Part shown: in pieces, positions 52,195 to 53,946 of the stretch | Layout of the letters: each line of letters opens with the position of its first letter | How positions within the stretch are numbered: the stretch's first letter is position 1 | Assembly: GCA_903843965.1 (NCBI GenBank) | Contig: CAIMRY010000009.1 | Span: forward strand, 1-64,000 | Source: an uncultured delta proteobacterium | Lineage (GTDB): Bacteria > Desulfobacterota > Desulfovibrionia > Desulfovibrionales > Desulfovibrionaceae | DNA: 64,000 bases | Direction: 5' to 3' | Notes under the pieces: generated by a model | What the model saw: the letters and a program-made list of their open reading frames with translations, nothing else | Told to the model about the DNA's origin: nothing | Databases searched by the model: none | Position numbers and translations under genes: made by a program

Positions 52195-52260
52195 CCTGCC
52201 GCCCCCTGCCGTTTGTTTCCCGTGAAATCTTGTCGCATTCGAGTAGTTTTGTGCTGTTCG

Positions 52261-52290
52261 ATGACATTCGTTGACATTCTTTGACAACGG
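52261..52290 (+). repeat. Three tandem 10-bp TTGACATTC repeats, promoter/operator
   Basis: ATGACATTCG, TTGACATTCT and TTGACAACGG follow each other without gaps. TTGACA at 52271 and 52281 are perfect -35 hexamers in phase with the helical turn, upstream of the HTH gene at 52318. They may be an autoregulated operator. Confidence 0.6.
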
Positions 52291-52317
52291 GTGCATAAGG
52301 GCATACATCGTTGCCAT

Positions 52318-52593
52318 ATGATAGACAGCGATGCAGATGCGCACGATTCAGCCCCGGGTTTGCCCAGACTTCTGACCCTGAAGGAAGTGGCCAACTTCTT
52401 GCGCATCCACCCAAGAACAGCGTACAGGTTGGTGCAGGACGGCGCGCTGGCCGCCATACGGGTTGGCACGCAGTGGCGAGTAACTGAGGATGCACTGCAC
52501 GAGTATGTTGCGCGCGGATGGCGGCATTGGCGGCCCGAACCTTCCAGGGTCAAGACACGGCAATACAGCCTGCCGTTTGAAGACGAGGAGTGA
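52318..52593 (+). CDS. Excisionase/MerR-type helix-turn-helix DNA-binding protein (91 aa)
   Basis: A compact winged HTH: LLTLKEVANFLRIHPRTAYRL, DGALAAIRVGTQWRVTEDAL as in the Xis/HTH_17 family, with a C-terminal acidic tail. These proteins act as recombination directionality factors or small transcription regulators. A start at 52291 (GTG) is an alternative. It overlaps or abuts the following hypothetical gene. No integrase is nearby, so a regulator role is more likely than excision. Confidence 0.82.
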   Translation: MIDSDADAHDSAPGLPRLLTLKEVANFLRIHPRTAYRLVQDGALAAIRVGTQWRVTEDALHEYVARGWRHWRPEPSRVKTRQYSLPFEDEE

Positions 52594-52595
52594 GC

Positions 52596-52997
52596 ATGAA
52601 TTCGACGCCTGATGGAATTTCCGGACAGCTGCACCCGGCCCGGCCCGTGTCTTTGCCCAACGACTTCGGCACGGCCATCAGCATGACGGCGAGCCTGGTG
52701 GCTGAGGACATCCACTTCAGCACCGCCACGGGTCTGCTCACGGTGGAGAAACTGTACCGCACCGCGCTGGGCCGCGTCGGCTATGGCATCATCGCCGCCA
52801 GCGGCGAAAGCCGCGAGCGCCGGGCCTACAGCCTGGACGAGCAGGGCGAGACCGTTATCTGCGACAATGGCGCCTTTGCCCTGGAGCTGCCCGTGAATGA
52901 TCTGCACGAGCTGTTGTGCATGGCCCTGCAGGCCGAGGACGCGCTGAAGACCGTGGGTGAGCATGCCCAGTTCGCCCAGGCCGTGAACGACAAATAG
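52596..52997 (+). CDS. Hypothetical protein, partner of the HTH gene (133 aa)
   Basis: ATG at 52596 with GAGGAG upstream, 2 bases after the HTH stop, so coupled. The sequence is cytoplasmic and mixed alpha/beta (SLVAEDIHFSTATGLLTV, GYGIIAASGES, RAYSLDEQGETVICDNG). There is no membrane segment or known motif. Possibly an effector of the HTH regulator. Function unknown. A strong terminator follows. Confidence 0.65.
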   Translation: MNSTPDGISGQLHPARPVSLPNDFGTAISMTASLVAEDIHFSTATGLLTVEKLYRTALGRVGYGIIAASGESRERRAYSLDEQGETVICDNGAFALELPVNDLHELLCMALQAEDALKTVGEHAQFAQAVNDK

Positions 52998-53021
52998 CCT
53001 CACGCCATCCGCCTGAAAATG

Positions 53022-53047
53022 AAAACGCCCGGTTGACCGGGCGTTTT
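53022..53047. terminator. Bidirectional Rho-independent terminator
   Basis: AAAACGCCCGG pairs with CCGGGCGTTTT around TTGA; T-runs on both strands serve the rightward HTH pair and the leftward lipoprotein gene. Confidence 0.85.
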
Positions 53048-53067
53048 TTGTTCTGGATTTGGCGGGA

Positions 53068-53946
53068 TCATCCCTGCGGCTTTCTGTTTCTTTTCAGCCA
53101 GGCCCAGCCTGCCAGCGTCAGTGCGCCCAGCACCGTGAGCGCGGTCTGCTTTGCATAGTCGTGCAGGATATCCTTCAGCCACTCGGACAGCGTTTCGCCC
53201 AAGCTTCGTTCCTTGAGCTTGATGGTCACGGCGTCTCTGTAGACGACAAAGGGGTCTTCCACCTTTTCGCCGTCGATCTTCCCATAGGCCACAAGGGTGA
53301 TTTCAACGGCCGCCAGCCCTTCCTGCTTGGGCGTCACCTCCCAGGTCCATTCCGTGCCGCTGGCCTCGGACACGGGCTTGGTCTGCTCCGGCTTGGAGAT
53401 GATCTTGATCTTGTCGTCCGCGCAGAGTCGGGCGGTCATGGTCTGGGAGGTCGGCACGGCGTTCTGCCCGCCCTGGATTCCTCCCTGTGCGTATGTTCGG
53501 CGGATTTCCTCGCTGAGCTTGGCATACGAAAGCGTCAGGCGGATGTTCTCGATTTTGTCCACGGTCATGGGCGAGGGCACGGAGTAGGCGATGTTGCCCT
53601 TGCGCATGGCATCGCGCATCCCGTCCACCGTGTCCGGCACCGTGCTCGGCACAGGGCGGGGTCCGTTGTCCGGGGCGGATCCCTTTGTGGTGGGTGGATA
53701 ATATCCGCCTGGGCCATTTTTAGCCTCGGCTGGCCCTGCCGGGGCTGCAGGGTTTGTCTCTTTCGGAGCTGTCACTGCTGGTGATGCTGTTGCGGGCTCG
53801 CTTTTTTTTCCCTCCGACTTCTTCTCTCCTGCGCACGCGAATAACCCGCAGACCAGGACAACCAAGGTCAGGGTCCAGAAAGCCGCAGCAATTCGGCTCC
53901 CAGAGCCCCGCCGGTGTGCTGGGACGTTGTGAGCATTTGCACGCAT
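53068..53946 (-). CDS. Putative lipoprotein with C-terminal membrane helix (292 aa)
   Basis: An N-terminal signal (about 18-38) ends LFACAGE, a plausible lipobox. A Lys/Pro/Ala-rich linker (about 40-95) precedes a beta-rich domain with TMTARLCADDKIKIIS and VTPKQEGLAAVEITLVAYGK, which looks like an immunoglobulin-like or outer-membrane-assembly fold. A membrane helix near the C-terminus (about 265-284) ends in a basic tail. It is an uncharacterised envelope protein. Function unknown. Confidence 0.65.
   Translation of the reverse strand: MRANAHNVPAHRRGSGSRIAAAFWTLTLVVLVCGLFACAGEKKSEGKKSEPATASPAVTAPKETNPAAPAGPAEAKNGPGGYYPPTTKGSAPDNGPRPVPSTVPDTVDGMRDAMRKGNIAYSVPSPMTVDKIENIRLTLSYAKLSEEIRRTYAQGGIQGGQNAVPTSQTMTARLCADDKIKIISKPEQTKPVSEASGTEWTWEVTPKQEGLAAVEITLVAYGKIDGEKVEDPFVVYRDAVTIKLKERSLGETLSEWLKDILHDYAKQTALTVLGALTLAGWAWLKRNRKPQG

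Follow-up and report, generated by a model that had tools for sequence, protein, structure and literature searches.

In the window (the whole 64,000-nucleotide stretch of DNA analyzed here), seven 10-bp units arranged in phase form an array that runs through the likely promoter of a small winged-HTH gene (gene 1) and into its start codon. We consider it probable, from sequence comparison, that the 91-residue gene-1 protein has this array as its cognate operator, on which it would repress its own expression cooperatively; the protein bears a clamp-like tail and may act with a co-expressed effector, the product of gene 2. The central features, all on the + strand, are as follows.

52252 to 52321, + strand: array of seven 10-bp in-phase units, the proposed operator (10-bp recurrence in the genus and in 50/50 type-1 loci, defined below)
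52261 to 52289, + strand: the three repeats described in an earlier note on this DNA, the best-conserved core of the array
52318 to 52593, + strand: gene 1, 91-residue winged-HTH protein (HTH_17, excisionase-family domain) with a BldC/Xis/RdfS-like fold in the model
52596 to 52997, + strand: gene 2, 133-residue protein whose family, among the genomes searched, does not extend beyond the window's own taxonomic family

The earlier note had pointed out three gapless 10-bp units, and these are real (GATGACATTC-GTTGACATTC-TTTGACAACG at 52260-52289), as are the perfect -35 hexamers that it saw in two of them (TTGACA at 52271-52276 and 52281-52286). The units are not identical: the middle one alone is an exact TTGACATTC, the first reads ATGACATTC, and the third has just TTGACA in common. 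The extent of the repetition was understated, the three repeats being the core of an array of ~70 bp and about seven units. In order, the units read TGCTGTTCGA TGACATTCGT TGACATTCTT TGACAACGGG TGCATAAGGG CATACATCGT TGCCATATGA, and six of them begin with TG (at 52252, 52262, 52272, 52282, 52292 and 52312); the sixth unit (52302) begins with CA in the window and with TG in several relatives. A single TTGACATTC-like word is unremarkable, with 11 matches at up to one mismatch in the window against 7.06 expected, a count reached by 8 of 100 shuffles. The phased score observed for the upstream region was reached by none of 1000 dinucleotide shuffles of that region, and the phased triple TGACA-N4-TTGACA-N4-TTGACA, allowed up to three mismatches, has four matches in the 3.56-Mb genome (one in the control), namely the exact site in the window and three sites with three mismatches each. 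The search elsewhere in the genome that the note had suggested thus returned no second array with fewer than three mismatches, and no regulon was seen when the 3.56-Mb genome was searched with the array pattern.

Both genes are present in 15/15 genomes of the genus. An alignment of 11 genus sequences shows an invariant TG every 10 bp (five consecutive, and again 20 bp on) and is gap-free from the array to the ATG; when all 15 genomes are aligned on the core, the TTGACA of unit 2 is 47 bp upstream of the ATG in every one. The earlier note had taken free variation of the repeats among strains as the observation that would speak against it; units 2 and 3 proved nearly invariant across the 15 genomes. 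Mean column identity is 0.85 over 52252-52291 (17/40 columns invariant) and 0.79 over 52292-52317 (6/26 columns invariant), compared with 0.44 in the preceding intergenic DNA and 0.75 across the initial 53 bases of the coding region; the array is thus merely somewhat above the coding start in conservation, which counts against the operator reading. The pattern TGACA-N5-TGACA-N5-TGACA with up to one mismatch occurs exactly once, at the operon locus, in 14/15 genus genomes, the fifteenth (G004) having a degenerate unit, and a reversed-pattern control gave no match in the same 15 genomes. The 44 other genomes searched yielded 13 matches to the core pattern (4 in the control), two of which (G021 and G027) are sited before the orthologous operon. 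At one locus (L029) the TG-only score falls short of significance (p 0.19), and by eye some unit spacings at L029 and L030 are 9 or 11 bp.

The coupled gene of the earlier note is present as described, its ATG at 52596 lying 2 bases after gene 1. AGGAG at 52586-52590, within the end of gene 1, is the likely ribosome site of gene 2, and the sequence suggests that the two genes are likely translationally coupled. Gene 2 occurs in 162/247 genomes of the taxonomic family and in 29/44 of its genera, with one match per genome except for two in G031; it was found in 0/24 genomes of the same order from other families, and in a sample of the phylum all 13 matching genomes (of 395) belonged to the window's own family. 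The window's gene-2 protein has no match in Pfam, NCBIfam or PHROGs, 14 diverse members of the family gave just single scattered Pfam matches (E 0.058 or worse), the best E in a profile search of the PDB was 0.74, and the AlphaFold model is unusable (mean pLDDT 43.5). A lone weak PADLOC match to a Type II methyltransferase (15.6 bits) was taken as chance. G031 (locus L106) has two tandem copies of gene 2, and before the second lies a short ORF with the degenerate tail MQLTLLTS. Gene 2 is followed by one further element of the operon.

53021 to 53048, + strand: terminator-like hairpin after gene 2, with a 12-bp stem, 4-nt loop and T run (-20.6 kcal/mol, z -4.7)

This hairpin is missing from the list of the consensus scan. 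It is symmetrical, with flanking runs of A and T, and is probably a bidirectional terminator that may also serve the convergent gene at 53068-53946.

We examined 112 gene-2 loci, drawn from three sets (80 + 15 + 17), the remaining gene-2-positive genomes lying outside this count. A profile match within 400 bp before gene 2 was taken as an HTH gene, giving 63 loci with and 49 without one (in G031 the best gene-2 copy is without an HTH gene and the other copy has one). The 63 were sorted by recognition-helix sequence into type 1 (T[AV]YR, 40 loci), type 2 ([ET]TLR, 16 loci, among them L220, which is doubtful as an HTH gene) and other (7 loci). The type-1 set was enlarged by 10 genus loci to 50; L016, L022, L023 and L026, whose genomes were already counted, and L027, with too little upstream DNA, were left out of the additions. 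Lag-10 recurrence of TGACA was scored over about 220-250 upstream bases against 200 shuffles, with a threshold of p≤0.01.

By this measure the array is significant in 50/50 type-1, 2/16 type-2 and 1/7 other loci, and in 2/49 loci without an adjacent HTH gene; the type-1 loci span seven genera (16, 14, 12, 3, 3, 1 and 1 loci) and are related, so the 50 loci are not 50 independent events. Lag 10 was the best lag in 50/50 type-1, 10/16 type-2 and 4/7 other loci. It was the commonest best lag in the loci without an HTH gene too (20/49), though rarely significant, and this counts against the association. Two near-type-1 helices in the 'other' class, G061 and G062, miss the threshold (p 0.026 and 0.056). 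Among type-2 loci the best autocorrelation falls at lag 10 in 8/16, with several p values of 0.01-0.05, and these loci may have another or a weaker phased motif. By eye, TTGAT/TTGAC words about 10 bp apart are seen upstream of the type-2 HTH genes at L107, L108 and L109. The array therefore tracks the type-1 HTH gene and not gene 2, as predicted for a cognate operator. The same distribution bears on the idea that the array is the operator of a different direct-repeat regulator, such as a response regulator, with the HTH gene merely its target. Some response regulators are indeed named as other direct-repeat binders in the BldC paper, in the text available of it (PMC5859096). A global regulator, however, would be expected at many sites, whereas the array occurs once in its own genome and in 14/15 genus genomes, and it accompanies the type-1 HTH gene rather than gene 2; we regard this explanation as unlikely.

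The array overlaps two candidate promoters for gene 1.

52281 to 52286, + strand: preferred -35, TTGACA of the third repeat (inferred from the 17-bp spacing peak in type-1 loci)
52304 to 52309, + strand: preferred -10 candidate, TACATC, 8 nt before the ATG
52271 to 52299, + strand: alternative promoter, TTGACA (52271-52276), 17 bp and CATAAG (52294-52299), inferred from the sequence

In 32/50 type-1 loci a TTGAC/TGACA unit and a hexamer starting with TA are exactly 17 bp apart, the peak over spacings of 12-23 (runner-up, spacing 20, 17/50), and in the other 18/50 no such hexamer is at this distance; the commonest hexamer at 17 bp is TACATC. In 15/15 genus genomes the first two bases of the -10 element are invariant and it lies 8 nt from the ATG. 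A strict consensus scan listed no sigma-70 promoter here, and no Shine-Dalgarno sequence was seen before the ATG at 52318. With the -10 just 8 nt before the ATG and no Shine-Dalgarno in view, the gene-1 mRNA may be nearly leaderless in the genus. At loci of another genus, g8, L146 among them, the start is placed further downstream. A start at GTG 52291 was considered: the frame is open back to this codon in 13/15 genus sequences (closed in L022 and L025), the codons from there to ATG 52318 vary in amino acid, and the ATG is preferred.

These promoter elements are the basis for reading the repeats as tandem overlapping promoters, in which the repeated TTGACA would supply alternative -35 boxes without any regulator. 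Two perfect TTGACA hexamers and the 17-bp peak fit such an arrangement, and a conserved -35 would by itself explain one unit. Yet the units unlike a -35 (52252, 52292 and 52312) keep the 10-bp TG phase, a lag-10 array in 50/50 type-1 loci exceeds what a promoter needs, and the -10 candidates are poor, so that we consider this reading improbable. Whichever promoter is used, its -35 and -10 and the start codon all lie within the array, which favors repression by occlusion; repression rather than activation is suggested by this position.

The 91-residue ORF begins at ATG 52318, directly downstream of the repeats, as the earlier note described. Its sole Pfam domain over cut-off is HTH_17 (2e-15), and it scores 53.4 bits against the TIGR01764 excisionase model (cut-off 28.8), a label that denotes a DNA-binding domain common to BldC-type regulators as well. 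The protein has a single MerR-like winged-HTH domain and no dimerization or effector domain. Its structural model is good within the domain (block means of 84-85 for residues 21-60) and of low pLDDT in the tail. In Foldseek the top seven matches were BldC chains (best E 1.2e-3, 34-37% identity), followed by Pukovnik Xis and RdfS, with no match at E≤0.001, and a phmmer search of PDB sequences returned BldC (E 0.014 and 0.028) and Xis (E 0.69) alone, all weak. In the geometry of its DNA, though in that only, the locus also resembles a BldC-type target, with direct repeats one turn apart. The BldC motif AATTnnnnC is absent, the units reading TGACATTCGT and so on, and the NCBIfam BldC model (NF033787) gave 21.8 bits against a cut-off of 77; gene 1 is therefore not classed as a BldC orthologue. 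Assignment to Mad1 of the MADS defense system was rejected (NCBIfam MAD1, 37.8 bits against a cut-off of 80; PADLOC mad1, 28.4 bits).

The excisionase label raises the possibility that gene 1 encodes the recombination directionality factor of an integrative element, either as a remnant or still in use, with the array part of an attachment site; the earlier note had likewise suggested the remains of such an element. The TIGR01764 domain above cut-off, PHROGs excisionase matches and a model fold similar to Xis and RdfS all speak for it. No tyrosine integrase was found nearby, however, and neither the spread of gene 2 through the family nor the neighborhoods compared indicate a location in a mobile element. 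Phage_integrase (PF00589, which covers tyrosine integrases only) has 10 matches in the genome and none on this contig (94,557 bases). The surroundings are mixed. Of the 18 regions compared, 8, drawn from four genera, have one and the same gene after the operon or after gene 2; most of these 8 also have a glycosyltransferase (PMT_2) as upstream neighbor. We take the shared downstream gene to be a phosphofructokinase; genes further upstream, common to the genus alone, are presumably flagellar. In the remaining 10/18 regions, all from other genera, the neighbors differ, which would fit movement of the operon or its surroundings. At L001 and L002 the sequence just upstream is unlike that of the window. 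A gene for 292 residues at 53068-53946 (- strand) stands between the operon and the phosphofructokinase-like gene in the window; none of the other 17 regions has a relative of it. A glance at single-contig genomes showed no consistent link between operon position and contig start. From the mixed synteny and the lack of an integrase match on the contig, we conclude that the locus is chromosomal and old, and not fixed in place across the family. Together with the downstream gene shared by 8/18 regions in four genera and a partner gene found in 162/247 family genomes, this makes a recombination directionality factor very improbable. The integrative-element part of the earlier proposal thus finds no support, with no tyrosine integrase on the contig and conservation throughout the family, while its autoregulated switch gains from the comparisons (conservation in the genus, type-1 HTH genes in seven genera, one site in 14/15 genomes).

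A further conserved feature is found at the C-terminus of the gene-1 protein.

52561 to 52578, + strand: codons for QYSLPF (residues 82-87), a tail resembling the beta-clamp-binding hexapeptide (compared with PMC3836487 and PMC12309361)

The motif Q-x-x-L-[P/F] occurs within the last 28 residues of 60/63 HTH proteins, compared with 3/333 heuristically called proteins from the same regions. Of the 60 matches, 58 have P and 2 have F at the fifth position, 42 have L at the second, and 56 have L, T or I at the sixth; of the three proteins without the motif, two read QLTLL and QLKLL and the third ends early. In G016, G082, G081 and G065 (L110, L165, L171 and L190) the HTH gene before gene 2 is replaced by a gene for a different small protein with the tail QLKLPT, which we take to be a ribbon-helix-helix protein. 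No tail-bearing ORF was detected upstream of gene 2 in 44/112 loci (the 49 without an HTH gene less G031 and the four ribbon-helix-helix-like loci). An alignment of type-2 HTH proteins, searched against 32 genomes (28 of them from the group of 49), found a full-length match in G131 alone, which has a pair; it partly matched G062's own pair gene and gave partial matches in G122, G076 and G109.

This pattern bears on whether the operon is a toxin-antitoxin-like pair, autoregulated, with a DNA-binding antitoxin first and its partner second, the tail contacting the partner and not the clamp. Two small coupled genes would suit such a pair, as would the exchange of the HTH protein in four genomes for a ribbon-helix-helix-like protein with the same tail. 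Against it stand the 44/112 loci in which gene 2 has no detected tail-bearing ORF upstream, a one-copy conservation across the family that is unusual for toxin-antitoxin pairs, and the match of the tail to a known clamp motif; we judge a pair of this kind to be about as unlikely as the response-regulator explanation.

In the text available from the sources cited here, interaction with the beta clamp requires QLSLPL in E. coli Hda and QFKLPL in Caulobacter HdaA (PMC3836487), QLSLPL is termed tight-binding (PMC12309361), and a review gives the general motif as QL(S/D)LF at the C-terminus (PMC9690074). Tails reading QLKLPL and QFKLPL occur among the HTH proteins, several of them identical to HdaA QFKLPL; measured against QxxLF or QL[SP]LPL at a flexible terminus, the Q-x-x-L-[P/F] tails of the 60/63 proteins fit and the window's QYSLPF is a near match. 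The gene-1 tail may, on this resemblance, hook the protein to the DNA-replication clamp. Such a reading is weakened by the ease with which short motifs arise, by the non-canonical QYSLPF and by the relatedness of the proteins, and the tail could contact gene 2. A search of 40 related genomes gave no Hda above the curated cut-off, but this says little, as only 1/14 control genomes passes the cut-off even with E. coli and Caulobacter included. Among the open-licence PMC titles listed, none concerns a clamp-binding wHTH regulator, and nothing on excisionase-family DNA-binding proteins in Desulfovibrio was found there. The LysR-type regulator YybE is reportedly linked to replication.

We return to the cognate-operator reading. 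Monomers would line up along one side of the helix, one to each 10-bp unit, in head-to-tail order and with cooperativity; BldC at smeA-sffA and Apl at pR-pL are precedents for cooperative binding to repeats one turn apart and for repression. The resulting filament would span its own promoter from the -35 past the -10 to the start codon and repress the two-gene operon steeply once enough protein has accumulated, so that gene 1 would act homeostatically, as an autorepressor with a sharp threshold. Given the Hda-like motif at the C-terminus, the operon may have a replication- or chromosome-linked function, with gene 2 as the co-expressed effector. The clamp-like tail and the orphan partner suggest more than a routine autoregulator. 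More tentatively, and as a possibility that we would not assume, a clamp-tethered BldC-like filament might be loaded or stripped at its own operator by clamp loading or fork passage and so set the level of the orphan partner, family-wide in Desulfovibrio-type sulfate reducers, with an exchangeable DNA-binding domain (HTH type 1, HTH type 2 or ribbon-helix-helix) and a constant clamp tail. The locus would in any case provide a small natural operator from which the site code of a wHTH filament can be read (10-bp phase and TGACA core, in seven genera), of use in tests of how BldC/Xis-type proteins select their sites; should the conserved tail of these small DNA-binding proteins bind DnaN, it would connect a transcription regulator with the replication machinery.

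By analogy, the window's protein probably works like BldC, RdfS and Apl, each compared here with the available text of its source. Streptomyces BldC (PDB 6AMA and 6AMK) is likewise a small single winged-HTH protein and the best match in fold and sequence among solved structures; it occupies direct repeats in head-to-tail order, the protected tracts being separated by one turn, and one of its sites is upstream of bldC itself (PMC5859096). It differs in its many targets, where a single array is found here, and in its motif (AATTnnnnC as opposed to TGACA) and model score (21.8 bits against the cut-off of 77). Apl of phage 186 binds seven direct repeats at a spacing of 10-11 bp between pR and pL, cooperatively, and represses both promoters (PMC7498355); unlike the window's protein, a family-wide chromosomal gene product with no integrase on its contig, Apl is a phage excisionase that also acts at the attachment site. 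RdfS of ICEMlSym-R7A (PDB 8DGL), each protomer of which takes up about 10 bp (PMC11963761), and Pukovnik Xis (PDB 4J2N) share the wHTH fold class, but both are borne by mobile elements, and RdfS is described in the text available as having no consensus motif, whereas the array here is strongly conserved. For the tail, the hexapeptides of Hda and HdaA match (PMC3836487 and PMC12309361), although there the motif is N-terminal in an AAA+ protein and here C-terminal on a small DNA-binding protein. A precedent is provided by T4 gp33 and gp55, small transcription proteins with C-terminal segments that bind the sliding clamp gp45, in gp55 on a variable linker, and that couple transcription to replication (PMC2988020). 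These are phage factors bound to RNA polymerase, whereas for the window's protein a role at the clamp is a prediction.
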